Assembly (NCBI RefSeq): GCF_023740735.1
Contig: NZ_JAMRXH010000001.1
Location: 682,001-746,000, forward strand
Length of the DNA: 64,000 bases
From: Nocardia sp. CDC159
GTDB taxonomy: Bacteria > Actinomycetota > Actinomycetes > Mycobacteriales > Mycobacteriaceae
Reading direction: 5' to 3'
Below are positions 26,487 through 46,565 of this stretch, in pieces. Position 1 is the stretch's first letter; each line of letters opens with the position of its first letter. The position numbers and the translations under genes are program-made. The notes under the pieces are model-generated. The model searched no databases. It worked only from the letters and a program-made list of their open reading frames with translations, and was not told the origin of the DNA.

Positions 26487-26506
26487 GCGGCAAGTGTAGG
26501 CGGCGG

Positions 26507-26523: not shown

Positions 26524-26566
26524 ACCATCCGCTTGCGCGACCCGAAGCCGGCCCGTTACCGTGTGC

Positions 26567-26591: not shown

Positions 26592-26601
26592 GGAGGGCGC
26601 T

Positions 26602-27084
26602 GTGGATTCCCACCAACTCCGCACGGTGCTGGCCCAGTGGGCGACCGGTGTCGTCGTGGTGACCACCGTGCGCCCGGACGGCGGCCGCCACGGGATGACG
26701 GCGAGCTCCTTCACCAGTGTGGCGCTGGACCCACCGCTCGTCTCGGTCTGCCTGGCCTCCGCGGGAACGACCTGCCGGACCGTCCGGCGCAGCGGGGTGT
26801 TCGCGGTCAACGTGCTCGGCCACGATCACGAGGAACTGGGCCGCCGCTTCGCCGGAAGTCCGGGCGAGACCGATCGTTTCGCACTCGGCCGGTGGGATAC
26901 GGCGGCTACCGGCTGCCCGGTGCTGACCGATGCGGTGGCCTGGCTGGACTGCGTGGTCGCGGCCTGTCATCCGGCCGGTGACCACACCATCGTGCTGGGT
27001 CTGGTGCGCGACGCCGCCACGCCGCGTCCGGCCGCTCCGCTCATCTATCACGACCGCACTTTCTACGAGGGGATAGCCCGATGA
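26602..27084 (+). CDS. Flavin reductase (FMN-binding split barrel), partner of a two-component monooxygenase
   Basis: The protein is 160 aa from GTG 26602 (MDSHQLRTVLAQWATGVVVVTT) with CGGAGGG upstream; upstream starts would pass through the operator. It has the flavin-reductase-like fold: WATGVVVVTTVRPDGGRHGMTASSFTSVALDPPLVSVCL, then FAVNVLGHDHEELGRRFAG and an acidic C-terminal part with DCVVAACHPAGDHTIVLGLV. Such proteins supply reduced FMN or FAD to a separate oxygenase. The 4-base ATGA overlap with the acyl-CoA-dehydrogenase-like gene points to that protein as the partner. It is the first gene of a five-gene coupled operon. Confidence 0.88.
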   Translation: MDSHQLRTVLAQWATGVVVVTTVRPDGGRHGMTASSFTSVALDPPLVSVCLASAGTTCRTVRRSGVFAVNVLGHDHEELGRRFAGSPGETDRFALGRWDTAATGCPVLTDAVAWLDCVVAACHPAGDHTIVLGLVRDAATPRPAAPLIYHDRTFYEGIAR

Positions 27085-29734: not shown

Positions 29735-30873
29735 CGCGCGTGGTGGTGGCGGGCGCGGGGCCGGTCGGGCTGACCGCCGCGCTCGTGCTGGCCCGGCGCG
29801 GGGTGGCGGTGACGGTGCTGGAGCAGGGCGATGCGCTGGCCGGCGAATCGCGCGCCTCGACGTTCCATCCGCCGACGCTCGAGATGCTGGCGCGGCTCGG
29901 GGTGCTGAATGCCTTGCTGGACAGGGGAATTGTCGCGTCGACCTTCCAGTACCGGGAGCGGGGCGGCGGGCCGATCGCGACGCTGGATCTCGGCGTGCTC
30001 GCCGAGGACACGCGCTTTCCGTTCCGTGTGCAGTGCGAGCAGAGCAAGCTCACCCCGATCCTGGTGGACGCCCTGCCTGCGCACGCCGAGGTGCGTTTCG
30101 GGCATCGGGTCGAGGGCGTACGCGCCGACGATTCCGGCGTGACCGTGTCGACCGCGCGCGGCACGGTGCGCGGGGACTGGTTGATCGGCGCGGACGGTGC
30201 GCATTCGGCCGTCCGCGCGAGCATCGGAGCCGGATTCGACGGCAGCACCTATCCGGAACGATTTCTGGTGGCCTCGGTGGCGGAGGACCTCGCCGCGGCC
30301 CTGCCCGATATCGCGCCGATCAACTATGTCTTCGATCCGATCGAATGGCTGGTGCTGCTGCGCACGCCCGAACACTGGCGGGTGCTGCTGCCCACCCCGG
30401 ACGGCACCCCCGACGAGCACGAATTGCGCCGTCTGCCACGGCGTTTGGCCGGCGTCGCCGAGCTGGGGCGGCCCTGGCGGTTGCTGCACGCCTCGCTGTA
30501 TCGGGTGCACCAGCGCGTCACCGAACGGTTCCGGGCCGGGCGGGTGGTGCTGATGGGCGATGCGGCGCATGTCAACAATCCGCTCGGCGGACTGGGCATG
30601 AACAGCGGCATTCACGACGCGGTGGCCCTGGCCCAGGCGCTGGCCGCGGTCCTCGAGGGCGGACCGGAAGCCATGCTGGATGCCGCCGCGGCGCACCGCC
30701 GCCGGGTCGCGGTGGAGCATGTCCAGGCCACCAGCCACGCCAACTACCACCGCCTGCGCGGCGACGCCGATGAGTTCCGCCGCCAGGTCCGCGCACTGGC
30801 CGCCGATCCGGCGTCGGCGCGGGCCTACCTGCGACGGGCGTGCCTGATCGATTCCCTGGGGAGTGCGCGGTGA
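29731..30873 (+). CDS. FAD-dependent aromatic/heterocycle monooxygenase (class A, PHBH fold)
   Basis: The protein is 380 aa from ATG 29731. Class A flavoprotein hydroxylase motifs are clear: the N-terminal GAGPVGLTAALVLARRG for FAD binding, the DG motif DWLIGADGAHSAVRASIG, and the GD motif VVLMGDAAHVNNPLGGLGMNSGIHDA. The central part (PINYVFDPIEWLVLLRTPEHW) forms the substrate pocket. These single-component enzymes hydroxylate phenols, hydroxypyridines or related rings using NAD(P)H. The island context suggests a pyrrole- or lactam-type substrate, but the sequence does not say which. It is fourth in the coupled operon; its end overlaps the second aldehyde dehydrogenase gene by 4 bases. Confidence 0.88.
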   Translation: MTRVVVAGAGPVGLTAALVLARRGVAVTVLEQGDALAGESRASTFHPPTLEMLARLGVLNALLDRGIVASTFQYRERGGGPIATLDLGVLAEDTRFPFRVQCEQSKLTPILVDALPAHAEVRFGHRVEGVRADDSGVTVSTARGTVRGDWLIGADGAHSAVRASIGAGFDGSTYPERFLVASVAEDLAAALPDIAPINYVFDPIEWLVLLRTPEHWRVLLPTPDGTPDEHELRRLPRRLAGVAELGRPWRLLHASLYRVHQRVTERFRAGRVVLMGDAAHVNNPLGGLGMNSGIHDAVALAQALAAVLEGGPEAMLDAAAAHRRRVAVEHVQATSHANYHRLRGDADEFRRQVRALAADPASARAYLRRACLIDSLGSAR

Positions 30874-32309
30874 CCGAAACCGCCGCGGGCGAGCACGACT
30901 GGATCGAGCGGGAGAATCCGGCGCGTCCCCGGGAGATCGTGGGGCGGGTCCCGGTGACCGCGCCGGAGCGGATCGACGACGTGGTGCACGCGGCGCATCG
31001 CTGGTTTCGGGACTGGTCGGAGGTGCCGCTGGCGCTGCGGTTGCGGCGGCTGTCGGAGGCGGCGGTGAGGCTGGACGCCGGACGGGCGGAGCTGGCCGCG
31101 CTGCTGGCCCGGGAGTCGGGCAAGCCGATCGCCGACTGCCGCGGTGAAATAGCCTTCGCCGCGACATATCTGCGTTGGGTCTGCGAGCACGCGCCCGCCG
31201 TGTGCGCGGCGCGCGAGCTCGCCGACGAGCAGGGGCGGCTGGTGCTGGCGCCGAAGCCGTACGGGGTGGTCGCGGCCGTCACCCCGTGGAACGCCCCGAT
31301 CATCCTGTCGATGATCAAGCTCGGTCCCGCCCTGGCGGCCGGAAATACGGTGGTGCTCAAGCCTTCTCCGCTCGCCCCGCTCGCGGTCACGCGGGCGGCG
31401 CAGTCGCTGCCCGGGGTCGCGGTCGTGCACGGCGGACCCGACCTGGTCCGCGCGCTGGTGGCACACCCGCTGGTGCGCAAGGTCGCCTTCACCGGCGGCG
31501 AGCAGGCGGGTGGCAGTATCGCGGCAACGGCCGGACGGGCGATCAAGCCGGTGACGCTCGAACTCGGCGGCAACGATCCCGCCGTATTCCTCGACGACTT
31601 CGCGCTCGCGCCCGCCGATTACGAGCGGCTGGTGCTCGCCTCCTTCGCCACCGCCGGCCAGGTCTGCATGGCGGCCAAACGCCTGTACGTGCCCCAGGGG
31701 CGGGCCGCGGAATTCACCGAGGCGTATCTCGCCGCGGCACGGCGGGTCCTGCTTGTCGGCGATCCGTCCGACGAGGCGGTCACGATGGGCCCGGTGGTGA
31801 CCCGCGCCGCCGCCGAACGCATGACCGCACTCGTCGACGACGCCCGCCGCCGCGGCGGTCGCATCGTCGAATTGGCGAACAGCCCCGGCGGGGAGGGCTA
31901 TTTCGTCGATCCGGTGCTCGCGACGCATCTGCCCGACGACGCGGAGCTGGTGTGTCGCGAGCAATTCGGACCGGTCGTGCCGCTGCTGACCTACCGCGAC
32001 GAGGCCGAGGTCCTCGCCCGCGCCAATGCGAGCGAACTGGGTCTGGGCGCCTCGGTCTGGTCCGCGGACGAGGATCGCGCCGTCGCCTTCGCCGCACGGC
32101 TGGAAGCGGGCTTCACCTTCGTCAATACCCACAACCGCACCGGAATGTCGCTGCGCGCCCCCTTCGGCGGCATCAAGCGCAGCGGCTTCGGGCGCGAGTA
32201 TGCCGAGGAGGGCCTGCGCGAATACCTTCAGACCACCGTCGTGCACGCCCCCGCGGCCTTCCGCCCCGGCGGTTCGGGCATGCCCGTCCGGGCCTACCCC
32301 GGGCAGTGA
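30870..32309 (+). CDS. Aldehyde dehydrogenase (second copy)
   Basis: The protein is 479 aa from GTG 30870, overlapping the FAD monooxygenase gene by 4 bases. Standard motifs are present: AVTPWNAPIILSMIKLGPALAAGN, KVAFTGGEQAGG, VTLELGGNDPAVFL with the general base Glu, FATAGQVCMAAKRLYV with the catalytic Cys, FGPVVPLLTYRDEAEVLARAN, and PFGGIKRSGFGREYAEEGL near the C-terminus. It is not a close duplicate of the first aldehyde dehydrogenase. It is the last gene of the operon; its stop is 8 bases from that of the convergent operon. Confidence 0.9.
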   Translation: MTETAAGEHDWIERENPARPREIVGRVPVTAPERIDDVVHAAHRWFRDWSEVPLALRLRRLSEAAVRLDAGRAELAALLARESGKPIADCRGEIAFAATYLRWVCEHAPAVCAARELADEQGRLVLAPKPYGVVAAVTPWNAPIILSMIKLGPALAAGNTVVLKPSPLAPLAVTRAAQSLPGVAVVHGGPDLVRALVAHPLVRKVAFTGGEQAGGSIAATAGRAIKPVTLELGGNDPAVFLDDFALAPADYERLVLASFATAGQVCMAAKRLYVPQGRAAEFTEAYLAAARRVLLVGDPSDEAVTMGPVVTRAAAERMTALVDDARRRGGRIVELANSPGGEGYFVDPVLATHLPDDAELVCREQFGPVVPLLTYRDEAEVLARANASELGLGASVWSADEDRAVAFAARLEAGFTFVNTHNRTGMSLRAPFGGIKRSGFGREYAEEGLREYLQTTVVHAPAAFRPGGSGMPVRAYPGQ

Positions 32310-35641: not shown

Positions 35642-35666
35642 GTTTCCCTATAGGAAACGCGGTTTC
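35642..35666. promoter_or_regulatory. Island operator (perfect three half-sites) before the minus-strand MFS/neocarzinostatin operon
   Basis: On the plus strand the site reads GTTTC-N7-GAAAC-N3-GTTTC; on the minus strand it reads GAAAC-N3-GTTTC-N7-GAAAC toward the gene. It lies 17 bases upstream of the GTG at 35624. The first two half-sites extend to a longer palindrome from 35641. Confidence 0.75.
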
Positions 35667-35815: not shown

Positions 35816-35840
35816 GAAACATCGTTTCGATGTACGAAAC
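35816..35840. promoter_or_regulatory. Island operator (perfect three half-sites) before the RCCR/PAO operon
   Basis: The site reads GAAAC-ATC-GTTTC-GATGTAC-GAAAC. The last two half-sites extend to ATCGTTTC/GAAACGAT (35821-35843). It ends 20 bases before the nitrilase-like ATG and just before the ribosome site GGAGGAGG. A 149-bp gap separates it from the divergent operator at 35642. Confidence 0.78.
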
Positions 35841-35860: not shown

Positions 35861-37483
35861 ATGCCGATGACCCGGGTCGCGGCCGCACAACTCGCCGCCG
35901 GTACCGATGTCGCGGACAATCTCGCCGCGTGCCTCCGGATGATCGACGCCGCCGCCTCGGTCGGCGCCGAACTGGTGGTCCTGCCGGAGTTCTGTAATCA
36001 CCTATCGTGGTACGCCGATCGCGCCCATGCGCACCGAATGGCCTGCACGGCCGGGGATTTCTTCCTGACCGCCATCGCCGAGCGCGCCGCGCGGCACGCC
36101 ATGCTCGTGAAGATCGGCGTGACCATGGCCCGCCCCGACGGCCGCACCACCGGCACCGGACTGCTGTTCGGCCCCGGCGGTGCGCTGCTCGGCGAGTCCG
36201 ACAAGCAGATCCTGATGGGGGCCGAGAACGACCATCTCGACCCCGGCTCGGCCGACTCCCCGGTGGTCACGACGCGGTTGGGCCGCATCGGCATGTACGC
36301 CTGTATGGAGGGGGTGATCCCGGAGGTCGCCCGCTCGCTGGCGGCGCGCGGCGCACAGCTGCTGCTCAACAGCCTCAACTCCTTCGCCATCGATGAGGCG
36401 AGCCTGCACATTCCGGTGCGGGCGGCGGAGAACAAGGTGTGGGTGGTGGCCGCCAACAAGGTGGGCCCGCTGCTGCCGGAGGACCTGCTGCCCACCGTCG
36501 CCGAACGCCTCGGAGTTCCGGCGGACCGGCTGTACGGGGCGGGTGAGAGTCAGATCGTGGCCCCCGACGGCACGGTGCTCGCCAAGGCGCCCGCTACCGG
36601 CGAGGCCATCGTGGTCACCGATGTCGACCTCACCCTCGCCGACGACAAACACCGCCCCGACGGCACGGATCTGTTTCGGGCCCGACGCCCGGAGCTGTAC
36701 CGGCCGCTGGCCCATCCCGCGCGCCGCCGCGCACCGGCCGGTGCCGAATCGGTGTCCGCGGCGGTGGTCGCTCCCGATGCGGAGGCGGTGCGGACCGCGG
36801 TCGCCGCCGGAGCCCGATTGATCGCGCTACCCGAACTCGCGGCCGTACCGGTTCCGGATGTCGTGGCGGCCCTGCGCGATTCCGACGCCCACGCGGTCCT
36901 GACCGTGCGCGACCGCGACCGGCACACCGGACTGCTGCTGGCCGCCGACGGCATCGTGGGACGCCAGGATCAACTGCACCGCACCGAACGCCACCCCTGG
37001 CTGCACGAAGTCGGTAGCGAACTGGCGGTTTTCACCCTTCCCTGGGGTCGGCTGGCCATCGTGGTGGGCGACGACGCCCTGTTTCCGGAGACCTTCCGCC
37101 TGGCCGCCATCGCCGACGCCGATGTGGCGGTCGTATGCCACACCCCCGCCGAGCCGTGGGAGCAGGCCCTCGGCCTGCCCGAGCGCTCGGCGGAGAACCG
37201 CCTCAACGTGGTCGCCGCCGGACTCGGTCCCACCGGCGAATCGACCGGAGCCATCCACGCATTGAGCCCCGATTTCACGCTGTGGACGCAATGGCGGGGC
37301 CCGTTCACCGGGGTGATCAGCCACCCCGTCACCACCGTCGTCCCACCCGGCACGACCTGTGTGCAGGCCGATATCCGCCCCGCCGAGGCCGTCAACCGCG
37401 CCGTATCCAGGGGCACCGACCTCCTCGCCGACCGGCCACCCGCCGCGCTGGCGAATCTGATCAGAGAACTGGAGCTTCGATGA
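35861..37483 (+). CDS. Tandem carbon-nitrogen hydrolase (nitrilase superfamily), second domain degenerate
   Basis: The protein is 540 aa from ATG 35861; ATG 35867 is also possible, and both have GGAGGAGG nearby. The first domain (about 1-275) is a complete nitrilase-fold amidase with the triad Glu43 (VLPEF), Lys115 (SDKQILMG) and Cys148 (GMYACMEGVIPE). The second domain (about 285-540) repeats the fold but lacks the Lys and has Gly in place of Cys (VVGDDALFPE); only the Glu (ALPELA) is kept. The second half may be structural. The active half would hydrolyse an amide or N-carbamoyl compound. It is the first gene of the eight-gene operon and overlaps the RCCR gene by 4 bases. Confidence 0.83.
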   Translation: MPMTRVAAAQLAAGTDVADNLAACLRMIDAAASVGAELVVLPEFCNHLSWYADRAHAHRMACTAGDFFLTAIAERAARHAMLVKIGVTMARPDGRTTGTGLLFGPGGALLGESDKQILMGAENDHLDPGSADSPVVTTRLGRIGMYACMEGVIPEVARSLAARGAQLLLNSLNSFAIDEASLHIPVRAAENKVWVVAANKVGPLLPEDLLPTVAERLGVPADRLYGAGESQIVAPDGTVLAKAPATGEAIVVTDVDLTLADDKHRPDGTDLFRARRPELYRPLAHPARRRAPAGAESVSAAVVAPDAEAVRTAVAAGARLIALPELAAVPVPDVVAALRDSDAHAVLTVRDRDRHTGLLLAADGIVGRQDQLHRTERHPWLHEVGSELAVFTLPWGRLAIVVGDDALFPETFRLAAIADADVAVVCHTPAEPWEQALGLPERSAENRLNVVAAGLGPTGESTGAIHALSPDFTLWTQWRGPFTGVISHPVTTVVPPGTTCVQADIRPAEAVNRAVSRGTDLLADRPPAALANLIRELELR

Positions 37484-38289
37484 GCGAAACCGTGCAACAC
37501 GTCGAGCAGATGGTCGACGCGACCGCACGCACCGACGTCACCGAGACCTTCGAGGAGTGGCAGCGGCTGCTGGCCGCCCTCAAAACACGCATCGACGAGC
37601 GTTTCGAACTGCACCGCGACCCCTCCACCGCGGATCTGGAGTCCTACGGCGACCCGGAGCAGGGTGCGTCGGGGCGGCTGGCCGCCTATTCCGGCCCGGA
37701 GATCGACTGGCTGGTGCACTCCTGGATCGGCGATCCCCGAACCGGTTTCGTCAATATGCACCTGACCGCGTGGCTGGGCCCGCACATCCGCGTCCCGCAT
37801 CTGGGCTGCGCGCTGCTGCTGTGGCCGCAGGGCTGGTTCTACGTCGACGCCATCGCGCGCGCGGATCTGATCGGCGAGGCCGACTACTACGACCGCTACT
37901 ACCTCGACGCCGACGAGCCGTGGCTGTCGTTCAAGGCCGATCATCCCGACTTCACCTGGTTCACCAGCCGGACCGGTTTCATCCGTGCCAGCCTCTCGCC
38001 CACCGCCTACTGCTATTCCTTCCCGCCCACGCGCCCGAACCTCGACACCGTCGCCGAAATCCTCACCGCCCGGGTCGATCAGTGGCTGGGCTGGGTCGAC
38101 GCCGCCGAACCCGTGCCCGCCGCCGAACGCCCGGCCCTGGCCGCGCGCGATCTGGCCATCCGCCGCAATATCGCCGAACGCGATCCCGCGAATGTGATGG
38201 GGCGGCGCATGTTCGGCGACGAGCTCACCGACCGCCTCGTGCGCGGGCTCTGGGGCGGGGATCGCGTCCTGGAAAGGCCCGCGTCATGA
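37480..38289 (+). CDS. Red chlorophyll catabolite reductase (RCCR) homologue
   Basis: The protein is 269 aa from ATG 37480, overlapping the previous gene by 4 bases. It parallels plant RCCR from about residue 70 to the end: IDWLVHSWIGDPRTG (plant IDFVIGSWIHCKIPTG), ARADLIGEADYYDRYY (HRKDLVLNPDYLKEYY), GFIRASLSPTAYCYSF (LFVRSAFSPTASMLKI), and ARDLAIRRNIAE followed by RRMFGDELTDRLV (RRDKSFRRKSIE, PRMFGEEVSSRVV). The plant sequence is from memory. Plant RCCR, a ferredoxin-dependent bilin reductase relative, reduces red chlorophyll catabolite made by pheophorbide a oxygenase. A Rieske oxygenase of that class is encoded two genes downstream. There is no transit or signal peptide, so it is probably cytoplasmic. 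The actual substrate is inferred. Confidence 0.82.
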   Translation: MSETVQHVEQMVDATARTDVTETFEEWQRLLAALKTRIDERFELHRDPSTADLESYGDPEQGASGRLAAYSGPEIDWLVHSWIGDPRTGFVNMHLTAWLGPHIRVPHLGCALLLWPQGWFYVDAIARADLIGEADYYDRYYLDADEPWLSFKADHPDFTWFTSRTGFIRASLSPTAYCYSFPPTRPNLDTVAEILTARVDQWLGWVDAAEPVPAAERPALAARDLAIRRNIAERDPANVMGRRMFGDELTDRLVRGLWGGDRVLERPAS

Positions 38290-39230
38290 GCATTGTTCGC
38301 TCCCTGTGGTGGTCGGTGCGCACCGACGGTGACGCGCCGTTCGACACCGCGCACCTGAAGATCTACTACCCGGCGACGGTGTCCGGCGACGACACCGAAC
38401 GGCTCACCGGGGTGTTCGCCCCGGACCCGGCCGGTGCGCCGTACCCGGTGGCGCTGTTCCTGTCCGGTGTCAATGTCGCACAGGACAGCTACCGCCGCTT
38501 CGCCACCGCGGTCGCCGCGGCCGGTTTCGCCGTCGTCACCTTCGATCGGGTCGCCGAATTGTTCGGCGGGCAGGTCGGTCTCACGCCGGGGGTGGATCTG
38601 GAGGCGGCCAAGCCCGCCACCTACGGCACCCGGCCCACCTGTCCCACCATCGGCGCGATCCTCGAGGCCCTGGCCGAGCTGAACGCCAGCGGCCCCCTGC
38701 GGGGCGCGCTCGACCTCACCCGAGTCGCCCTCGGCGGGCATTCGGCCGGGGGCACCGTCGTCCTGCAGTCGGCGCGGTTCTTCCCGTCGGTCGCCGCGGT
38801 TTTCGCGTGGGGCGCGCACACCATGGTGGCGACGATGCTCGGCTGGGAGCCGGGCACGGTGGTGCCCGCACAGGTGAACTGCCCGGTGCTGCTGGGCGTC
38901 GGCACCAACGACGGCGTGATCCAGGGCAGTGCCGACCGCTACGGCGAGGACGGCGCCGACCGCCCGGATCCGGTGCGGCGCACCTTCGACGAGGCGCTAC
39001 CCGACGGTGATCATCTGCTCGCGGTCGTGCTCGGCGCCAATCATTTCGGCATCGCCGACGCCGACCCGACCGCGGCGCGCGCGTTTCTCGACGGCCCGGG
39101 CCACATCTCGGCGCTGGAGCCGTTCGCCCGACTGACCGCGGCATTCCTGCGCACCCACCTGCTCGGCTCGTCACCGGCTCGCGCCGAACTGAGCGCCTTC
39201 GACGACGGCCTGCTGCTGCAGCGGCGATAG
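38286..39230 (+). CDS. Chlorophyllase-like / dienelactone-hydrolase-like alpha/beta hydrolase
   Basis: The protein is 314 aa from ATG 38286, overlapping the RCCR gene by 4 bases. It has an alpha/beta-hydrolase fold with YPVALFLSGVNVAQDSYRRF before the first helix and a nucleophile elbow ALGGHSAGG with Ser153, comparable to the GHSRGG elbow of chlorophyllases. VLLGVGTNDGVIQG should carry the acid and ANHFGIAD the His. There is no signal peptide. Plant chlorophyllases split phytol from chlorophyll; here the position between RCCR and the Rieske gene suggests ester cleavage on a chlorophyll-type substrate or catabolite (phytyl or methyl ester). The fold is clear, the substrate is inference. Confidence 0.78.
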   Translation: MSIVRSLWWSVRTDGDAPFDTAHLKIYYPATVSGDDTERLTGVFAPDPAGAPYPVALFLSGVNVAQDSYRRFATAVAAAGFAVVTFDRVAELFGGQVGLTPGVDLEAAKPATYGTRPTCPTIGAILEALAELNASGPLRGALDLTRVALGGHSAGGTVVLQSARFFPSVAAVFAWGAHTMVATMLGWEPGTVVPAQVNCPVLLGVGTNDGVIQGSADRYGEDGADRPDPVRRTFDEALPDGDHLLAVVLGANHFGIADADPTAARAFLDGPGHISALEPFARLTAAFLRTHLLGSSPARAELSAFDDGLLLQRR

Positions 39231-39238
39231 GAGATCCG

Positions 39239-40360
39239 ATGCTCAAGAACTTCTGGTACGCACTGGAATTCGCCGACCGAGTGGGCCGCGATCCGCGCAA
39301 GGTCACCTGCCTGGGCCAGGATTTCGTGCTGTACCGCACCGAGGCGGGTGCGCCGGTGTGCCTGTCGGATCTGTGTGTGCACCGCGGTGGCGCGCTGTCG
39401 ATGGGCAGGCTCTCCGGCGACTGCATCACCTGCCCGTACCACGGCTGGCAGTACGACGCGGAAGGCAAATGCGTTCGCATACCGGCCAATTCGGCCGAAC
39501 GCAATATTCCGCGCAAGGCGCGGGTCGACTCCTATCCGACGCTGGAGCGCTACGGCATGGTGTGGGCCTTTCTCGGCGATCTACCGGAGGAGCAGCGCCC
39601 GCCCGTTCCACAGATCCCGCAGCACGACGATCCGAGTTTCCGGGCCGTGCAATACGAAATGGTCATCGACGCGAACTACGAGCGGACCTTCGAGAATGTC
39701 GTCGACGCGGCGCACACGCCGTTCGTGCACGGCACCTCCTTCGGCAATCCGGTCAAGCCGGAGATCCCCGATTTCCGCGTCCAGCAGACGGATTGGTCGG
39801 CCGAGGCCGATATCCGGCTCAGCCCGCCACCGCCGAAGGGACTGTGGGGTCTGCTGGCCCGGCGGCGGCCCCGCCCGGACTACGTCACCGTCACCAACGG
39901 CTGGTATCTGCCCAACATCGTCAAATTGCATGTACGGCTGCCGATCGGCGACATGATCCTCTACGACTTCAATATCCCGCTCTCCCAGGACCGCACCCTG
40001 GTCAAGATCCTCGGCTACCGCAACTTCTTCACCGGCGCGTGGGCCGATGCCAACGCCCGCAAACGGATCGAGAAGATCCTGCTCGAGGACCGCCCCGTGG
40101 TCGAATCCCAACGCCCCGAACTGCTGCCCTTCGACCTGTCCGACGAACTGCACGTGCGCAGCGACGCCCTGCAGGTCGCCTATCGCCGTCGCCGCGCTCA
40201 GCTGATCAAGGACGGCTGGTGGGTCGACGGCGACGACATCATCACCGGCGATGTGCCCCGGCGCACCGCCACCGTCATCGCCTCACCCGCGCGCCGCGAC
40301 AATCCCGAACTGGCCAGCGCGTGGGTGCACAAGGCCCGCACCGGAGGAGAGCCGCGATGA
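39239..40360 (+). CDS. Rieske non-heme iron oxygenase, pheophorbide a oxygenase (PAO) class
   Basis: The protein is 373 aa from ATG 39239 with TAGGAGA upstream. The Rieske cluster ligands are Cys46-x-His48 (LCVHRGG) and Cys65-x2-His68 (CPYHGW). The mononuclear iron site is Asp156, His159 and His164 in NVVDAAHTPFVHGTS. The C-terminal half has LPIGDMILYDFNIP, a stretch of Leu-Val-Lys, then YRNFF, which parallels FNIP...ARNFF of plant PAO (from memory). Plant PAO is about 540 aa with C-terminal membrane helices and a CxxC; those are absent here, so this is a soluble core enzyme. PAO opens the pheophorbide macrocycle between two pyrroles. The flanking RCCR-like genes support this role. The reductase and ferredoxin partners are not in the operon. 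Confidence 0.82.
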   Translation: MLKNFWYALEFADRVGRDPRKVTCLGQDFVLYRTEAGAPVCLSDLCVHRGGALSMGRLSGDCITCPYHGWQYDAEGKCVRIPANSAERNIPRKARVDSYPTLERYGMVWAFLGDLPEEQRPPVPQIPQHDDPSFRAVQYEMVIDANYERTFENVVDAAHTPFVHGTSFGNPVKPEIPDFRVQQTDWSAEADIRLSPPPPKGLWGLLARRRPRPDYVTVTNGWYLPNIVKLHVRLPIGDMILYDFNIPLSQDRTLVKILGYRNFFTGAWADANARKRIEKILLEDRPVVESQRPELLPFDLSDELHVRSDALQVAYRRRRAQLIKDGWWVDGDDIITGDVPRRTATVIASPARRDNPELASAWVHKARTGGEPR

Positions 40361-41046
40361 GCCTGCCCGCCACGCTGTGTGAGCGCACCCTGAACACGTT
40401 GCGCGACAAATTGAATCTGAACGTCGCCACCGATATCCCCCTGGTGTCGCAGATGTCACCGGTTCCGGTCGGCAGGCTGCGCGTGCTGCGCGGCGGGCCG
40501 ATCGACAAGGTGGTGACCGTCGACCTGGTGGTGCCGCCGATCGGGCTGGACAGCCACATGATCTTCGCATTCCTGCCCTCCGGCAGCGCGATTCCGCATT
40601 TCACCCTCGATTCGGTGCATGCGAGCGAGCATTTCGCGATGCATCTGGATCTGATACCGCGGGTGGATCTGGCGGTGCACCTGGACTACCTCGACGCGGC
40701 CTTCCTGCCGCTGACACCGCTGCTGGAGGCGGCCTGGCAGATCGCGGGCGTGTCCCCCGCCGCCGTCGGGCCCCGGCAGCGCGCCATGATGTCGCCGTGG
40801 ATGGTCGTCTGCCGCGCCAGCGAGGCGGCGTTCGGCGAGCTCGGCGGCACCGTCGACGCCTATCTGCGGCACTGGCTCACTCTGGTCGACAAGGGAGTTC
40901 CCGCGGTCGACGTCGACGTGGCCGCCCGCGATCGGGTCAATCGGGCGAATCTGTTCAGTCCCCAGGTGGATCCGGTCTGGGCGCAGGTCACCCGGCTGCT
41001 CGGCCAGGAGCAGTCCGAGCGGGTGCGAGGGGAGCTGCTGGCATGA
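40357..41046 (+). CDS. RCCR / ferredoxin-dependent bilin reductase-like protein (second)
   Basis: The protein is 229 aa from ATG 40357, overlapping the Rieske gene by 4 bases. The central segment IPHFTLDSVHASEHFAMHLD followed by LIPRVDLAVHLDYLDAAF has the order of the RCCR/bilin-reductase core (P.F..E......L.LDLP.RKDLV..PDYL..YY). A later MMSPWMVVCRAS segment and ARDRVNRANLFSP near the C-terminus fit the same fold. It is more distant from plant RCCR than the product of 37480 and lacks the MFGEE-type ending. It may reduce the same bilin at another position or act as a chaperone for the Rieske enzyme. The family call is moderately sure, the function unknown. Confidence 0.6.
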   Translation: MSLPATLCERTLNTLRDKLNLNVATDIPLVSQMSPVPVGRLRVLRGGPIDKVVTVDLVVPPIGLDSHMIFAFLPSGSAIPHFTLDSVHASEHFAMHLDLIPRVDLAVHLDYLDAAFLPLTPLLEAAWQIAGVSPAAVGPRQRAMMSPWMVVCRASEAAFGELGGTVDAYLRHWLTLVDKGVPAVDVDVAARDRVNRANLFSPQVDPVWAQVTRLLGQEQSERVRGELLA

Positions 41047-41960
41047 CCACCTCCCCCGCGCCCAGCGCCTGGCAGCAACGCATCGCCGGGGAATGGGTGG
41101 GTCGCCCGTCGCTGTTCGACGCCCAGGGCACCTGGCTGGGCTTCGAGGACATCCGCCGCTCCTCGGTGTTCGCCGACGGCGTCACCACCTATTACATGAA
41201 CGGCGGGCTGACCGGCGGCGGCCCGCTGGCCGGGCGGTTCGCCCTCGGCGCGCCGTTCGCCTTCGGCGTCACCGACTCCGACGCGGATCGGATCTACACC
41301 GGACCGGACTTCTACGGGTCCGGTCAGCCCTACGGCGGATTCGTCGACGCGCACTATTACGGCCCCGGCTGGCAGGTTTCGCTCAACACCTGGAACCAGA
41401 CCATCGACGACACCCAGGTGTACTCCTCGGTGCTGTCCCAGGGACCGGCCGTGATCGGGGTGTTCAACGGCGTCTACACCCGTGATCCCAACCTCGTCGA
41501 CGACCGCGTCGCCACCGAAACCCGGTGCGGTACCGCATGCTTCGTGCTGCCGACCAAGGACGAGAGCCGATACGCGGGCGAGTTGGAGGTATGGGAAGCG
41601 GCGCAGCGTCGCGTGGGCAGCGCACGGATGACGCTGACGGTCGATCCGCTGAGCCTGCTCAGCGCCGAGCACCACGTGCGGCTGTCCGGTGCGCTGGAGC
41701 TGGACACCCGCGCCACCGTCCGGCGCGACGGGACGCGCGGCTTCCACGAGGGTCCCGGACTCTGGGGCAACGCCACCGCCTACGGCCGGGCCAACTATCC
41801 CACCCTGCACCTGACCGACGGGCGGCGAATCCTGGGCCGGGAGTTCATGATCGACGCCGAACCCGGTATGGGGGCGGGCTCGACACTCGCGGTGGTCTAT
41901 CAGCTGTTCGAGCACAACCGCCTGGCGACGGTGCTGCACGGCGTGCTGGAGCGGTCGTGA
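41043..41960 (+). CDS. Hypothetical beta-rich protein of the chlorophyll-type catabolic operon
   Basis: The protein is 305 aa from ATG 41043, overlapping the previous gene by 4 bases. It has no signal peptide or membrane helix. It is rich in Gly, Tyr and Trp with regular strands: QRIAGEWVGRPSLFDAQG, GVTTYYMNGGLTGGGPLAGR, GGFVDAHYYGPGWQVSLNTW, then VIGVFNGVYTRD. This pattern suggests a lipocalin- or calycin-like barrel that could hold a pigment, similar in spirit to DUF3598 proteins, but the likeness is weak. I do not recognise a defined family. Coupling on both sides shows it belongs to the pathway. Confidence 0.65.
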   Translation: MTTSPAPSAWQQRIAGEWVGRPSLFDAQGTWLGFEDIRRSSVFADGVTTYYMNGGLTGGGPLAGRFALGAPFAFGVTDSDADRIYTGPDFYGSGQPYGGFVDAHYYGPGWQVSLNTWNQTIDDTQVYSSVLSQGPAVIGVFNGVYTRDPNLVDDRVATETRCGTACFVLPTKDESRYAGELEVWEAAQRRVGSARMTLTVDPLSLLSAEHHVRLSGALELDTRATVRRDGTRGFHEGPGLWGNATAYGRANYPTLHLTDGRRILGREFMIDAEPGMGAGSTLAVVYQLFEHNRLATVLHGVLERS

Positions 41961-42742
41961 GCACGGTCGCGATCACCGGCGGTACCCGCGGTATCGGACT
42001 GGGCATGGCCCGCGCCCTGCTCGAGCGCGGGCACCGGGTCGCGCTGTGCGGCAGCGGCTTCGAGCGCGTCGAGCGGCTGCGCCTGGAACTGCCCGACACG
42101 GCGCTGGTGGTGGCGGCCGACGTGACCGATCGCCAACAGGTGCAGAAGTTCTGGAACGCGGCGGTCGAGCGATTCGGGGCGGTCGACATCTGGATCAACA
42201 ACGCCGGTATCAGCCATGACCGGAAGCCGCTGTGGCAGTTGCCCGACCGCGACGCGCGCGCGGTGCTCGACACCAATTTGGTCGGCGTGCTCAACGGCTG
42301 CGCGGTGGCCATCGCCGGAATGGCCGCGAACGGCGGCGGACATGTGTGGAATATGGAGGGTCTGGGCAGCGACGGGCGCACCGTCGCGGGCCTGTCGGTG
42401 TACGGGGCGAGCAAACGGGCCGTCACCTACCTCACCCGAGCCCTGGCGAAGGAGGTACCCGCCGGGGTGTCGGTCGGACTGCTCAGCCCCGGCATGGTCG
42501 CCACCGATCTGCTCACTCACGGCTACGCCGACGACGAATGGGCCAGGGCGCGCAGGATATTCGACATTCTGGCCGACCGGGTGGAGACGGTCGCGCCCTG
42601 GCTCGCCGAGCGCGCGGTCGCCCGCACCCGCAACGGGGCGCAGGTGCGCTGGCTGACCGGCCCCAAGATCATGAGCCGATTCGCGCTGGCTCCCTTCCGT
42701 CAGCGTCATATCTTCGACGACAAGGAGTTACCCGGTGCCTGA
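41957..42742 (+). CDS. Short-chain dehydrogenase similar to chlorophyll b reductase (NYC1/NOL)
   Basis: The protein is 261 aa from GTG 41957, overlapping the previous gene by 4 bases. The SDR core is intact: TGGTRGIG at the N-terminus, NNAG, and the catalytic Tyr149-x3-Lys153 (VYGASKRA). It follows plant NYC1/NOL beyond the general SDR pattern: DIWINNAG, GGHVWNMEGLGSDG (plant GGHIFNMDGAGSGG), VGLLSPGMVATDLL (VGLHTASPGMVLTELL), IFDILADRVETVAPWL (MFNIICELPETVARTL), VRWLTGPKI, and a final FDD. The plant strings are from memory. NYC1/NOL reduce the C7 formyl of chlorophyll b, the first step of chlorophyll b breakdown. That role here is inferred from likeness plus the RCCR and PAO neighbours. Confidence 0.8.
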   Translation: MSTVAITGGTRGIGLGMARALLERGHRVALCGSGFERVERLRLELPDTALVVAADVTDRQQVQKFWNAAVERFGAVDIWINNAGISHDRKPLWQLPDRDARAVLDTNLVGVLNGCAVAIAGMAANGGGHVWNMEGLGSDGRTVAGLSVYGASKRAVTYLTRALAKEVPAGVSVGLLSPGMVATDLLTHGYADDEWARARRIFDILADRVETVAPWLAERAVARTRNGAQVRWLTGPKIMSRFALAPFRQRHIFDDKELPGA

Positions 42743-43478
42743 CGTGCTGGGCTGGCGAGCGAAATTCGGGGTGCTCGCGCCCTCGACCAATACCGTGGTG
42801 GAACCGGACTTCGCGCGCATGGGCGTGCCGGGGGTCACCGCACATTTCGGTCGCATCCACATCCGCGACCAGAACATGGGCGACGACGCGGGCATGGGCC
42901 GACTGCTCGAACAGATTCGCGCCGAGATCGCCGCCGCCTGCGAGCGGGTCATGACCTGCGAACCGGATTACATGGTCATGGGCATGTCGGCGGAGACCTT
43001 CTGGGGTGGTGTGGAAGGCAATCAGCGATTCGTCCGGCAGATCCAGGACCTGACCGGGTTGCGGGTGGCCACCGGGGCCGAGGCGTGCCGCCGCGCGCTG
43101 GAGCTGTACGGCGCCAAGCGCATCGGCGTGGTCACGCCGTATCAACCGGTCGGCGACGAGAACGTGGTGCGGTTCTTCGGCGAACTCGGCTTCGAGGTGG
43201 CCGCGATCAAGGGATTGCGGTGCCCCACCGCGGTTTCCATCGCCCATGTCACCGAAGACGAACTGCGCCAGGCCCTGCGCGCGGTGGACGGCGAACAGGT
43301 GGACGCGCTGGTGCAGTGCGGCACCAACCTGTCGATGGTCCGGCTCGCCGACGAGGCGGAGCGCTGGCTGGCCAAGCCGGTGCTCGCCATCAACGCCGCC
43401 ACCTGGTGGATGGCGCTGCGCGACAACGGCATCAGCGACCGGGTCGAGGGCGCGGGCGCGCTGCTGCGCGAGCATTGA
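42735..43478 (+). CDS. Maleate isomerase / arylmalonate decarboxylase family protein
   Basis: The protein is 247 aa from GTG 42735, with AAGGAG 7 bases upstream and an 8-base overlap with the SDR gene. It is an Asp/Glu-racemase superfamily two-lobe fold: GVLAPSTNTVVEPDF at the N-terminus, the first-lobe loop MGMSAETFWGG, TGAEACRRALELYGAKRIGVVTPYQP, and the second-lobe loop VQCGTNLS with the catalytic Cys. The first-lobe position where maleate isomerase has its other Cys holds Ser or Met here, so only one catalytic Cys is seen, as in arylmalonate decarboxylase. It may isomerise a substituted maleate or decarboxylate a malonate-type acid. It is the last gene of the eight-gene operon. Confidence 0.8.
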   Translation: MPDVLGWRAKFGVLAPSTNTVVEPDFARMGVPGVTAHFGRIHIRDQNMGDDAGMGRLLEQIRAEIAAACERVMTCEPDYMVMGMSAETFWGGVEGNQRFVRQIQDLTGLRVATGAEACRRALELYGAKRIGVVTPYQPVGDENVVRFFGELGFEVAAIKGLRCPTAVSIAHVTEDELRQALRAVDGEQVDALVQCGTNLSMVRLADEAERWLAKPVLAINAATWWMALRDNGISDRVEGAGALLREH

Positions 43479-43481: not shown

Positions 43482-44297
43482 TCAGCCGTCGAGCAGGCGA
43501 CGGGCGGCGCGGATGACGGCGAGGTCGACCATGCGGCCGCGCTCGTCGAGCACGACGCCGCCGTCGGCGCGCTCGAAGCGGTCGACCAGGGCGCGGGCGG
43601 CCGCGAGCCGATCGGGTGTCGGCGTGAACACCTCGTTGACGATCGGCACCTGGGTGGGGTGAATACAGGCGCGGCCGCGAAAACCCAAGCGGGCCATGGC
43701 GAGAGTCGACGCGCGCAGGGCCTCGAGATCGACGAAGTCGGTGCGCACCGGGGCCAGCGGCGGCTCGATTCCGGCCGCGGCGCTGACCAAAACGATGTGG
43801 GTCCGGATGGCGAGCATTTCCGGTTCCCCGGGTCCGGGCTCGATACCGGTGTCGGCGCGCAGATCCGCCTCACCGAGCTGCAGCCGCCGCACCCGTGGCG
43901 CGTGCGCGATCTCACCGGCCGCGAGTACGGCCGCCGCGCTTTCCAGCAGCGGACAGACCCGCACGACGCCGGGCCGGGGAGCGTGCGCGTGCACGAGCGC
44001 GTCCACGGCGCGAACCTGTTGCGCGGATTCGGTTTTGGCCAGGCAGATCGTCGCCGCACCGGCGGCGAGAACAGCGCGCAGGTCTTCCTGCCCGAGCTCG
44101 CCGGAGTTGATCCGCACCCAGATCCGTTGCGGCTGGGCGCCGGTGCGCAGCCGGGCGGCCACCTCGGAGCGGGCCGCCGATTTGTCCCGCATCGGGACGG
44201 CATCCTCGAGGTCGAGCAGGATCACATCGGCCGGACCGGCCAGCGCCTTGTCGAACAGCTCGGGTCGATTGCCGGGAACATACAGCGCCGATCGCAC
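43482..44297 (-). CDS. HpcH/HpaI-CitE family lyase (citramalyl/malyl-CoA lyase-like)
   Basis: The protein is 271 aa from GTG 44297, with AGGAGG 6 bases upstream. CitE-type motifs are RSALYVPGNRPELFDKAL at the start, DVILLDLEDAVP with metal-binding acids, RIWVRINS with the substrate Arg, LLESAAAVLAA with the metal Glu, LQLGEADLRAD, and GRACIHPTQVPIVNEVF. These TIM-barrel enzymes make or cleave malyl-, citramalyl- or citryl-CoA type bonds. In this island it could split a citramalyl-CoA-like intermediate into pyruvate or a keto acid and acetyl-CoA. It is transcribed alone against the main operon, with an island operator 13 bases upstream of its start. Confidence 0.87.
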   Translation of the reverse strand: MRSALYVPGNRPELFDKALAGPADVILLDLEDAVPMRDKSAARSEVAARLRTGAQPQRIWVRINSGELGQEDLRAVLAAGAATICLAKTESAQQVRAVDALVHAHAPRPGVVRVCPLLESAAAVLAAGEIAHAPRVRRLQLGEADLRADTGIEPGPGEPEMLAIRTHIVLVSAAAGIEPPLAPVRTDFVDLEALRASTLAMARLGFRGRACIHPTQVPIVNEVFTPTPDRLAAARALVDRFERADGGVVLDERGRMVDLAVIRAARRLLDG

Positions 44298-44310
44298 CAG
44301 CCACCTCCTC

Positions 44311-44335
44311 GAAACATTGTTTCTCAGAAGGAAAC
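44311..44335. promoter_or_regulatory. Island operator (perfect three half-sites) at the CitE-like promoter
   Basis: The site reads GAAAC-ATT-GTTTC-TCAGAAG-GAAAC on the plus strand. It begins 13 bases upstream of the CitE-like start (minus strand) and lies 152 bases before the secreted hydrolase, so it may serve both divergent units. Confidence 0.75.
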
Positions 44336-44439
44336 TTATCGACCTATCAACCCTGCTGTCCAGCACGAACGAATTTCCGCTGCAAATCTCGAGGTTGACA
44401 GCCGGGCAGGCTTACCCACTAATGAGACCCATCAGTTGA

Positions 44440-44464
44440 GAAACGCCATTCCATCCATGGAAAC
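44440..44464. promoter_or_regulatory. Degenerate island operator before the first secreted hydrolase
   Basis: The reading is GAAAC-GCC-ATTCC-ATCCATG-GAAAC: the outer half-sites are perfect, spacings of 3 and 7 are kept, and the middle half-site is changed. It ends 22 bases before the ATG at 44487. Confidence 0.5.
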
Positions 44465-44486
44465 GGCACCGCCCCTTGGAGTCGCC

Positions 44487-45431
44487 ATGGGCACGAAGGA
44501 TTCGGTTCTGGCCGCCCTGGCCGCCGCTGCCGCGCTCACCCTTTCCGCCACCATCCCGGCCGCCGCCGACGGCCTGCCGGGTGCCATCGAGATACCCTGC
44601 GCCGCCGACGTTCTCCAGCAGAGCGTCGACTGGTTCGTCCCGGACGGACCGGCGCGCGGCCTGATCTGGCTGCAGCACGGATTCGCTCGCACCCACGCCA
44701 ATGTCGCCGAGCTGGCACAAACGTTCGCGGATGCGGGCCATCTGGTGTTCGTGCCGAGCCTGCCGTTCATGAATCTGTCCGGCTGCACGCTGCAGAGCCT
44801 GGGCGACAACACCGCCTTCCTGAACAATGTCGCCGCCCTGCTGTCCGGCGATCGAGCCGGTGCGCTGCGGGCCAGCCTCGCCGCGGCTCTCGGGCCGGAC
44901 CGCGAAATCCCCGCGATCCCAGAGCAGTTTGTGTTCGTCGGGCACTCCGCGGGCGCGGAGGCGGTGGAATACGTCGCCTACCGCATGCAGGCCAGCGCAC
45001 CACGGGTGTGGGCGGGGCTGCGCGGGCTGGTGCTGCTCGATCCGGTGCGATCGTTCCTGGGCGACAACACCGATCGCGCCCTGGCCGCACTCGACCCGAC
45101 CGGCCTGCCGATCCTGGCGGTGTCGAGCCCGCCGTCGTGGTGCAACACCTTCGGCACCGGCACCGACGCGCTGCAACGCCATCTGCACCGGCCCTTCGTC
45201 GGCGTCCGGCTGGCCGACGGGGCGCACACCGACGCCGAGGGCAACAGCTCCGATCCGGTCGGCGAATCGCTCTGCGGCACACCGCGACCGGCGAACGTAG
45301 CCACCCTGCACAGGCTGGTGCTGGGCTGGATCGGCGACTTCTTCGCCGGAACGACCACCCCGGACTACTATCCGACCACCGCGGGCACGATACCCGCCGC
45401 CCCGGAGGTCCAGATTCTGCACGGCGCCTGA
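44487..45431 (+). CDS. Secreted serine hydrolase (alpha/beta hydrolase), copy 1
   Basis: The protein is 314 aa from ATG 44487 with TTGGAG 6 bases upstream; earlier in-frame starts would cross the operator. A Sec signal peptide (about 1-28, ending IPAAADG) shows it is exported. The hydrolase core has RGLIWLQHGFARTHANV, VFVPSLPFMNLSGCTL, the elbow FVGHSAGAEAV with Ser154, and LRGLVLLDPVRSFLGDN; four Cys could form disulfides. It is clearly paralogous to the product of 45585. Both carry island operators, so an outside-the-cell ester cleavage, for example of a phytyl or methyl ester, would be the first step. The substrate is inference. Confidence 0.82.
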   Translation: MGTKDSVLAALAAAAALTLSATIPAAADGLPGAIEIPCAADVLQQSVDWFVPDGPARGLIWLQHGFARTHANVAELAQTFADAGHLVFVPSLPFMNLSGCTLQSLGDNTAFLNNVAALLSGDRAGALRASLAAALGPDREIPAIPEQFVFVGHSAGAEAVEYVAYRMQASAPRVWAGLRGLVLLDPVRSFLGDNTDRALAALDPTGLPILAVSSPPSWCNTFGTGTDALQRHLHRPFVGVRLADGAHTDAEGNSSDPVGESLCGTPRPANVATLHRLVLGWIGDFFAGTTTPDYYPTTAGTIPAAPEVQILHGA

Positions 45432-45548
45432 GCATTTCGCGCGAGATCGCCACGCCCGGGTGCCGAGACACGAGCCTGCGACAACCGTCTTTGGGCCCCG
45501 GTATTGACTCATACGCGTTTCCGACTCCTAATGAAGTTTGTGAGAAAT

Positions 45549-45573
45549 GAAACACTGTTTCTCACAGAGAAAC
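45549..45573. promoter_or_regulatory. Island operator (perfect three half-sites) before the second secreted hydrolase
   Basis: The site reads GAAAC-ACT-GTTTC-TCACAGA-GAAAC, ends 11 bases before the proposed TTG start, and abuts the ribosome site TAGGAG. Confidence 0.78.
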
Positions 45574-45584
45574 TAGGAGTCACG

Positions 45585-46565
45585 TTGGGTACCCGACGTC
45601 TGGCCGCCGCGAGTTCCATCGCCGCCGCCATCACCGCATTCACTTTGTTCACCGGCTCCCCCGCGAGCGCCGACTCGGCGGTCACCAAGGTGGAGAACAC
45701 GGTGGAGATCCGCTGCGCGTTCACCATCCTGCGCCAGAGCAGTGACTGGTACTTCCCCACCGGCACGCCCAAGGCCCTGTTCTGGCTGCAGCACGGCTTC
45801 GCCAGCGCCAACGACGCGCTCACCGACACCGCGAACAAGCTTGCCGCGCAGGGCTTCCTGGTCTTCGCGCCCACCCTCCCGACCGCCAACACCTTCGGCT
45901 GCACGGTGGAGAACCTCGGCAACAACACCAACTTCCTGCACAATGTGGCCGATCTGTTCGGCAAGGCCGCCGACCCCAAGGACAAATTGGGTCGCAGCTT
46001 CGCCGACGCCAAGGCCAAGGCGGGGCGTCCCGAACTCGCCCTGCCGAACGCCTTCGTCTTCGCCGGACACTCCGCCGGCGGGGAAGCGGTTGCCTACGTG
46101 ACCCAGGTGTTGCGCGCCGACTACGCCGCCGCCTTCGCGAAGGTCCGCGGCGCGATCCTGTTCGACCCGGTCAAGAGCTTCGTCGGTAACAACCTCAGCA
46201 GCTCGCTGAACCATCTGAGCAACAGCACACTGCCGGTGTTCGCGATCTCCGCACCGCCCTACAGCTGCAACCGCAGCGGCTCCGGCACCAACGAGGTCAT
46301 CGAGCAACTACCACGTCCGTTCCTCGGTGTCCGACTCACCACCGGCTCGCACGTCGACGTCGAGGGATCCAGCGCGACGGGACCGGACAAGCGGCTCTGC
46401 GGCACCCCGCAGGACAAGAACGTGGCAGCACTGCAGCGGTTGACCGCCGCCTGGGCCGCGGACTTCGTCACCGGCACCCGCACCGCCGACTACTACCCCG
46501 GCGGCGGCTACTACGAGAGCCAGCGCACGGCCGGAACCATCCAGACACTCGCCTCGGGCACGTAG
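45585..46565 (+). CDS. Secreted serine hydrolase (alpha/beta hydrolase), copy 2
   Basis: The start is probably TTG 45585 (TAGGAG 5 bases upstream), giving 326 aa. ATG or GTG starts further upstream would place the operator inside the coding region. A Sec signal peptide ends near GSPASADS. The core repeats that of the 44487 product: KALFWLQHGFASANDAL, LVFAPTLPTANTFGCTV, the elbow FAGHSAGGEAVAYV with Ser163, and VRGAILFDPVKSFVGNN. The C-terminal TADYYPGG is shared too. The pair arose by duplication and has diverged. A strong hairpin terminator follows 13 bases after the stop and marks the right edge of the island. Confidence 0.82.
   Translation: MGTRRLAAASSIAAAITAFTLFTGSPASADSAVTKVENTVEIRCAFTILRQSSDWYFPTGTPKALFWLQHGFASANDALTDTANKLAAQGFLVFAPTLPTANTFGCTVENLGNNTNFLHNVADLFGKAADPKDKLGRSFADAKAKAGRPELALPNAFVFAGHSAGGEAVAYVTQVLRADYAAAFAKVRGAILFDPVKSFVGNNLSSSLNHLSNSTLPVFAISAPPYSCNRSGSGTNEVIEQLPRPFLGVRLTTGSHVDVEGSSATGPDKRLCGTPQDKNVAALQRLTAAWAADFVTGTRTADYYPGGGYYESQRTAGTIQTLASGT

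Follow-up and report, generated by a model that had tools for sequence, protein, structure and literature searches.

Does an actinomycete carry an operon for taking chlorophyll or another tetrapyrrole apart, and which of its enzymes are related to those of the plant pathway? This question is raised by eight genes, g1 to g8, located on the + strand at positions 35861-43478 of a 64,000-nucleotide stretch of Nocardia sp. CDC159 (contig NZ_JAMRXH010000001.1), which is called the window here; all positions are those of the window. A preliminary description had interpreted the genes as a translationally coupled operon resembling the plant PAO/phyllobilin pathway of chlorophyll breakdown. The coupling was borne out, as the gene ends overlap or almost touch, with ATGA/GTGA or longer overlaps at the junctions and an 8-base gap between g3 and g4. 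That the actinomycete has an operon for tetrapyrrole breakdown finds good support in two proteins of the red chlorophyll catabolite reductase (RCCR) superfamily encoded beside a Rieske oxygenase, an arrangement conserved across several bacterial groups. Of the plant-pathway homologies claimed, only that of RCCR was shown. The find also exceeds the preliminary description: the RCCR-Rieske-RCCR2-barrel core lies inside a palindrome-marked catabolic stretch, and the products of g6 (41043) and g8 (42735) and the wider regulon had not been part of it. The eight genes, in a genome of 7.86 Mb, are as follows.

35861..37483, + strand: g1, CN-hydrolase of the nitrilase superfamily with two domains, predicted to act as a half-amidase; the start may be 35870
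37480..38289, + strand: g2, RCC-reductase-family protein (PF06405, AtRCCR match)
38286..39230, + strand: g3, alpha/beta hydrolase, chlorophyllase/PETase-like (PF07224 just below the cut-off)
39239..40360, + strand: g4, Rieske oxygenase from a clade of its own, predicted to open the macrocycle (PF00355, PF19112, tree)
40357..41046, + strand: g5, second, divergent RCCR-superfamily protein (sub-threshold PF06405, family scan, fold)
41043..41960, + strand: g6, two-barrel protein with a DUF3598/BFA1-like modelled fold, predicted tetrapyrrole carrier
41957..42742, + strand: g7, short-chain dehydrogenase/reductase (SDR; PF00106)
42735..43478, + strand: g8, arylmalonate decarboxylase (AMDase)/maleate isomerase superfamily protein with an AMDase-type active-site pattern (PF17645)

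The RCC-reductase pair, the Rieske oxygenase and the other operon enzymes

The g2 product had been proposed to be an RCCR homologue, and this assignment holds. It matched PF06405 with an E of 4.4e-14 and 52.7 bits, above the curated cut-off of 24.9, and Arabidopsis RCCR (3agb) with an E of 4.2e-8 over residues 30-257 (228 residues). The PDB match that followed RCCR was the Guillardia bilin reductase PebB (E 3.7e-6), and PF05996 gave no match at E<=1. At E<=0.001, 376 proteins including the window's own matched g2, the best 120 of which all carry PF06405, and the closest named relatives were Nocardia proteins with up to 90% identity. Because public database entries for some relatives of g2 already read 'Red chlorophyll catabolite reductase', the family label itself is not new. 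In the CDC159 genome, PF06405 (above the E limit) and PF19112 were each matched by a single gene, and these two genes lie about 1 kb apart. A plasmid-borne core gene was considered and dropped, as g2 had no match among 72,556 plasmid records.

The preliminary description of the 40357 product (g5) as a second RCCR-like protein is likewise supported, for a divergent member and with a modelled fold as part of the evidence. Its PF06405 score, 21.5 bits, was below the cut-off of 24.9, while 15 of the 30 scanned members of its family matched PF06405 at E<=0.01 and two matched PF05996. In the AlphaFold2 model (pLDDT 94.6), the top nine PDB matches were all Arabidopsis RCCR chains (E 8.4e-12 to 3.1e-10); AtRCCR, PebA and PebB tied by VIA-align Z, and matches to HY2 and PebA-type bilin reductases were also obtained. 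A tree placed g2, g5 and AtRCCR together against eight cyanobacterial bilin reductases, with a split support of 100/100. The single plant row, AtRCCR, is a long branch, and its grouping with FDBR was not rejected (p 0.278); when row L108, a g5 protein filed as g2, was removed, none of four clade tests led to rejection (p 0.147 to 0.283).

The g4 protein consists of a Rieske domain (PF00355) and VanA_C (PF19112), and its closest solved relatives are SxtDIOX/SxtT and NdmA. The PaO domain PF08417 was detected neither in g4 at E<=1 nor anywhere in the CDC159 genome; it was over the cut-off in all five cyanobacterial genomes searched and sub-threshold in one Acidimicrobiia genome. A Rieske tree of 34 rows was constructed with the window's g4 and 11 of its 53 orthologues, plant PAO lying outside it. 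Of the 15 PaO loci, L085 and L087 were left out, having no suitable reading frame, and L090, with the sub-threshold PF08417 match, was kept as a row without being classed as PaO. The g4 proteins and the cyanobacterial PaO proteins, 12 of each, fell into separate groups, each with support of at least 99/98. Because the Pfam result, the genome search and the tree all oppose it, membership of the 39239 product in the PAO family, as previously claimed, was rejected. The rejection covers the family membership and not a PAO-like job for g4.

The other operon enzymes fared differently. The chlorophyllase likeness of g3 stood in part: there is a match to Chlorophyllase PF07224 at 24.7 bits, but this is below the cut-off of 26 and spans only residues 43-85 (43 residues). 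The SDR g7, in which NYC1/NOL-specific segments had been noted, matched PF00106 with an E of 9.2e-42; the libraries assign it to generic SDR families, and neither NYC1 nor NOL appears as a name among the best 120 of 4810 matches. For g1, PF00795 was found with an E of 2.6e-44, and the cysteine motif [M/L]YACMEG is kept in 40 of 51 orthologues. No Pfam match was obtained for g6, and the structural matches of its barrel model included nitrobindin and CpeS. The best PDB matches of g8 (PF17645, E 2.1e-19) were maleate isomerases. In arylmalonate decarboxylase, the active-site pattern comprises Gly74 and Cys188, and both were matched when g8 was aligned to 3dtv; among the g8 orthologues, VMGMS is present in 41 of 41 and VQCGTN in 37 of 41. 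Since the alignment shows the AMDase pattern, the decarboxylase was preferred and maleate isomerase, the other candidate, was set behind it and kept open.

Conservation of the core across bacteria

Species genomes were scanned with g2, and the best 80 of 104 encoding stretches were kept as loci and grouped by record title: 28 from Nocardia, 14 from other Actinomycetes, 10 from Acidimicrobiia-type metagenome-assembled genomes (MAGs), 2 from Anaerolineae and 26 from Cyanobacteria. The 10 MAG loci include single entries titled 'Actinomycetota', 'marine group bacterium Sva0996' and 'Rhodospirillaceae'. Clustering of the open reading frames was rich in antisense frames, and served for finding neighbours and not for counts. 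All of g1-g8 were present in 28/28 Nocardia loci. Among the other Actinomycetes, g2-g3-g4-g5-g6 were found in this order in 11/14 loci, and g2-g4-g5-g6 were contiguous in 10/10 MAG loci. One of the two Anaerolineae loci had g4 and g5, and neither had g6. Two more actinomycete genomes carry g1, g2, g4, g5, g6 and a g9-type lyase (g9 being the gene behind g8) within 20 kb. The RCCR-Rieske-RCCR2-barrel core is thus conserved in Nocardia, other Actinomycetes, Acidimicrobiia-type MAGs and partly Anaerolineae. PF06405 itself is patchy, with matches in 35 of 148 genomes of the genus and in 3 of 396 of the phylum sample, both including CDC159. Because the layout of L041, the locus with the Rhodospirillaceae title, almost equals that of L043 (Acidimicrobiaceae), mis-binning of L041 is possible, and no proteobacterial carrier is claimed.

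The RCCR genes of the two Anaerolineae loci (L055:855-4031 and L051:1793-5212) lie downstream of a run of genes lacking Pfam matches, which in L055 includes one DUF3891 gene. Relatives of these preceding genes recur near the Acidimicrobiia-type clusters.

The palindrome and the neighbouring genes

The palindrome GTTTC-N7-GAAAC occurs at 11 sites in the CDC159 genome when both strands are read, and the reversed control at none. Seven of the 11 are located between window positions 18611 and 45573 (27 kb). With even placement, the probability of this is ~2e-15 for the given stretch, and 5e-13 when the choice of the stretch is allowed for. When up to one mismatch was accepted, ten palindromes were found in the window against 0.54 expected, and 0 of 100 shuffles reached ten. 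The seven exact sites, which have no strand, and the genes around the operon are listed by position.

17139..18650, - strand: u0, cyclic-amide hydrolase of the hydantoinase/allantoinase type, predicted to open maleimides as an imidase; start unsure
18611..18627: palindrome GTTTC-N7-GAAAC, between u0 and CaiB
18683..19912, + strand: CaiB-type CoA-transferase (PF02515); the real start is probably 18725
18685..18701: palindrome GTTTC-N7-GAAAC, before CaiB
19909..20721, + strand: PF04199 cyclase/arylformamidase-like hydrolase (profile match)
20718..22133, + strand: MmgE/PrpD dehydratase-family protein (profile match)
22136..23038, - strand: HMG-CoA-lyase-like C-C lyase (PF00682; NF004283, 309 bits, cut-off 246)
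23014..24333, + strand: second CaiB-type CoA-transferase (PF02515)
25701..26528, - strand: IclR-family regulator, a candidate for control of the regulon (PF01614, PF09339)
26515..27084, + strand: flavin reductase (PF01613); start probably near 26602
26575..26591: palindrome GTTTC-N7-GAAAC, between IclR and flavin reductase
27081..28352, + strand: acyl-CoA-dehydrogenase-fold monooxygenase, nitrososynthase/DszC-like (library matches)
28349..29734, + strand: aldehyde dehydrogenase (library matches)
29731..30873, + strand: FAD_binding_3 monooxygenase (library matches)
30840..32309, + strand: aldehyde dehydrogenase (library match)
35642..35658: palindrome GTTTC-N7-GAAAC, before the - strand gene 34503-35624
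35824..35840: palindrome GTTTC-N7-GAAAC, before g1
43482..44366, - strand: g9, HpcH/HpaI (CitE/RipC-like) C-C lyase (PF03328); the true start is probably below the palindrome at 44319
44319..44335: palindrome GTTTC-N7-GAAAC, between g9 and d0
44457..45431, + strand: d0, hydrolase-like protein paralogous to d1, its N-terminus resembling a signal peptide by eye (translation); start unsure
45504..46565, + strand: d1, second hydrolase-like protein with a signal-like N-terminus by eye; start unsure
45557..45573: palindrome GTTTC-N7-GAAAC, at the front of d1

In the Nocardia loci, the palindrome was detected within 400 bases before g1 in 26/28 and at least once anywhere in 27/28. Ten of the 52 non-Nocardia loci contain it, i.e., 9/14 of the other Actinomycetes and one MAG. 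It stands before g1 in 0/23 non-Nocardia loci, one of which (L048) holds no upstream sequence. It is found at the front of d1 in 6/6 Actinomadura/Nonomuraea loci (L030, L032, L033, L036, L038 and L053), where d1 adjoins g1 upstream, and in front of the IclR gene in seven loci of the other Actinomycetes (L027, L030-L033, L036 and L038). The IclR gene lies directly before g1 in 8/10 MAG loci. These positions make the IclR protein a candidate binder of the palindrome and regulator of the regulon. Through the palindrome, the operon is linked with a hydrolase of the hydantoinase type, with CoA-transferases and C-C lyases, with flavin monooxygenases, and with the IclR protein and two secreted-looking hydrolases, all of which are likely co-regulated. 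Of the four palindromes outside the window, one adjoins an FMO-like gene and one an nSTAND1 gene, and the other two lie where there is no Pfam match. The FMO-like flavoprotein gene, at 2031-3541 of L130 (C1:68400-72500), is directly behind its palindrome and may be a distant regulon member.

Several neighbours were classified below curated thresholds. The u0 product matched allantoinase TIGR03178 with an E of 8e-68 and 229 bits (cut-off 357.85), and an allantoinase in PDB with an E of 8e-44. The g9 product scored 159 bits against NF038242 RipC, for which the cut-off is 375. No Pfam match was found for d0, and those of d1 to Hydrolase_4 and Abhydrolase_3 were weak and below the cut-off; queries with d0 and d1 match the identical 31 of 81 loci. 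The CaiB/cyclase/MmgE set recurs in 7/10 MAG loci (L041-L047) at 50-59% identity, and u0 in 4/10 at 59-62%. L041 additionally contains hydantoinase B and a PEP-mutase/isocitrate-lyase-family protein.

The gene at 34503-35624 on the - strand, divergent from g1 behind its palindrome, encodes a hydrophobic protein lacking a Pfam match, possibly a transporter, and relatives of it are present in many Nocardia loci.

The predicted pathway and its alternatives

Because two RCCR-superfamily proteins are encoded, a linear tetrapyrrole is the natural guess for the substrate, and chlorophyll, pheophytin or pheophorbide is the preferred source. Heme is less likely, since heme oxygenase PF01126 is missing in 5/5 Acidimicrobiia, Rhodospirillaceae and Anaerolineae carriers searched; this absence is soft, because all five are MAG records and possibly incomplete. 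The domain was detected in 5/10 genomes searched, namely 4/4 Actinomycetes including CDC159 and one Nostocales. The scanned cluster genes included no heme oxygenase. On balance, we lean toward the operon being the core of a likely co-regulated catabolic set (17-47 kb of the window) that breaks down a tetrapyrrole derived from chlorophyll as a carbon and nitrogen source.

In such a pathway, the secreted-looking d0 and d1 together with g3 would cut the phytyl and methyl ester groups, the AMDase-type g8 would remove the activated carboxyl of ring E, and the SDR g7 would reduce a carbonyl. The Rieske enzyme g4 would open the macrocycle, as plant PAO does, but as a different protein. Subsequently, g2 and g5, paired or in turn, would reduce the linear product with electrons from ferredoxin, with g6 as a putative pigment carrier, and the flavin monooxygenases and aldehyde dehydrogenases would cut it to single-ring maleimides. 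The imide would be opened by u0 and ammonia released by g1, and the dicarboxylates would enter central metabolism by way of the CoA-transferases, the MmgE/PrpD protein and the C-C lyases. To use alkyl maleimides derived from pyrrole rings, a cell would be expected to open the imide, hydrolyse the amide, activate the product with CoA and cleave C-C bonds. A passage of PMC8669743 mentions maleimides as breakdown products of tetrapyrrole pigments, in that case bacteriochlorophylls. In the fullest version, bacteria mineralise chlorophyll: the esters are removed outside the cell, a new clade of Rieske enzymes opens the macrocycle, paired RCCR proteins reduce the product, and all four pyrrole rings pass by way of maleimides into central metabolism, with a single dedicated IclR regulator in control. 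This version is tentative, and we regard it as possible rather than probable.

Several points weigh against the chlorophyll reading. The Rieske enzyme does not belong to the PAO family, and 9/10 MAG loci are without a detected GTTTC-N7-GAAAC palindrome. The u0/CaiB/MmgE set lies outside the 10-kb flanks of the Nocardia loci; because these flanks fall short, its linkage among Nocardia is known from this window alone. CDC159 possesses a heme oxygenase elsewhere in its genome, and the carriers in which PF01126 was missing are MAGs. The maleimide intermediates are predicted purely from enzyme classes. The Staygreen Mg-dechelatase PF12638 was found in 0/12 genomes; no control genome matched either, and this result was not used as an absence. 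The acidic residues of note in Arabidopsis RCCR are Glu154 and Asp291. In the Glu154 column, g2 has Ala and g5 has Asp, and near Asp291 both have Asp within one column, the gap placement being unsure. As a guess from the alignment, the Ala/Asp difference may mean that g2 and g5 work as a pair.

Among the alternatives, the catabolism of another tetrapyrrole (heme-derived biliverdin or bilirubin, phycobilins or a porphyrin) is unlikely but carries the most weight. In this case the RCCR pair would serve as bilin reductases, and the Rieske enzyme would attack either a ring or a side chain. The matches of g5 to HY2 and PebA-type proteins, PebB as the next PDB match of g2 (E 3.7e-6), and the heme oxygenases of CDC159 and the three other Actinomycete carriers searched fit this alternative. 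However, it is opposed by PF01126 in 0/5 of the Acidimicrobiia, Rhodospirillaceae and Anaerolineae carriers searched and by none being seen among the scanned cluster genes; g2, moreover, matches PF06405 with no PF05996 at E<=1, and an AMDase-type decarboxylase with an esterase would suit ring E of chlorophyll better. Flavin monooxygenases, aldehyde dehydrogenases, cyclic-amide hydrolases and CoA-transferases are common in aromatic catabolism, and all of these classes are present in the stretch, so that a non-tetrapyrrole N-heteroaromatic pathway, with RCCR-fold proteins recruited to another job, also has to be considered; the lack in g2 of Glu154 agrees with it. We hold it to be rather improbable in view of two RCCR/bilin-reductase-superfamily proteins and a barrel with nitrobindin and CpeS matches next to a single Rieske enzyme; tetrapyrroles are what the superfamily's known members act on (passages of PMC10151467).

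Two further explanations start from the plant enzymes. Plants use the PAO/RCCR pair largely for detoxification, and by this parallel the operon could remove or turn over the organism's own phototoxic porphyrins rather than serve nutrition. We give this little credence, since the patchy distribution (35/148 genomes of the genus), the secreted-looking hydrolases and the lyase and CoA-transferase genes at the palindrome speak for a substrate from outside the cell. The reading of the preliminary description, a plant PAO/phyllobilin pathway in the strict sense with homologues of PAO, chlorophyllase and NYC1/NOL, can claim the RCCR homology, and even so it is the least credible of all: PF08417 is found neither in g4 nor in the CDC159 genome, the Rieske clade is separate, and the chlorophyllase match is below the cut-off.

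The preferred chlorophyll-derived set was compared with known systems. It resembles plant phyllobilin breakdown in combining a Rieske oxygenase and an RCCR-family protein with a hydrolase and an SDR, but differs in its non-PaO Rieske enzyme, two RCCR-type proteins, a single bacterial operon and the link to imide hydrolysis and C-C lyases, which are not known to belong to the plant pathway. From the bilin reductases (PcyA, PebA/B, HY2), g2 differs by the absence of PF05996 at E<=1, and g2 and g5 stand apart from the eight cyanobacterial members in the tree. Cyclic imide catabolism employs an imidase and a half-amidase and yields a dicarboxylate. The hydantoinase-type u0 and the CN-hydrolase g1 in one palindrome-marked stretch are reminiscent of it, although the putative substrates here are alkyl maleimides from pyrrole rings. 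The cyanobacterial RCCR homologues belong to the same Pfam family and are 42-49% identical to g2 (26 loci), but the g4-g5-g6 run is present in 0/26 of these loci, unlike in the Nocardia cluster. A match to a g1-type CN-hydrolase and/or an aldehyde dehydrogenase lies nearby in 22/26, Pfam-checked in L058 only.

If the proposed set is correct, it would provide named genes and a metagenome sequence marker, RCCR-Rieske-RCCR2-barrel, for bacterial chlorophyll recycling, a possible bacterial PAO counterpart that can be put to the test and a new view on the origin of plant RCCR. In the mineralisation version, RCCR would be at root a bacterial catabolic enzyme shared with plants, and not a plant invention passed to cyanobacteria. 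In passages of a study by Rockwell and co-workers, RCCRs 'and related sequences' are the outgroup, and Candidatus Schekmanbacteria proteins are placed there (PMC10151467). Nostoc and Anabaena homologues were reported in 2009, and a passage of that paper suggests pick-up from a plant host as likelier than the reverse (PMC2716323). Among the papers listed by searches of the open-licence PMC literature, which leaves preprints and most subscription journals outside its scope, there was no account of a bacterial RCCR-Rieske cluster, nor any named bacterial genes that carry chlorophyll breakdown to its end. Chlorophyll turnover is estimated at a billion tons per year in a passage of PMC12930011.

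Some minor observations were made at these loci. In L054, L058, L060 and other cyanobacterial loci, at ~10001-13400, the RCCR homologue often lies beside a CN-hydrolase and an aldehyde dehydrogenase, and in the cyanobacterial L057, L058, L059 and L080 two RCCR copies are close together. In the window, the product of 33072-33656 (- strand) marginally matches the neocarzinostatin family, with 25.7 bits against a cut-off of 25, and a Dabb-domain gene at 32791 adjoins this gene. Farther from the operon, a reading frame of 3515 amino acids extends over 1448-11995 (+ strand), and a thermolysin-type M4 metallopeptidase is encoded at 60872-62521 (+ strand).

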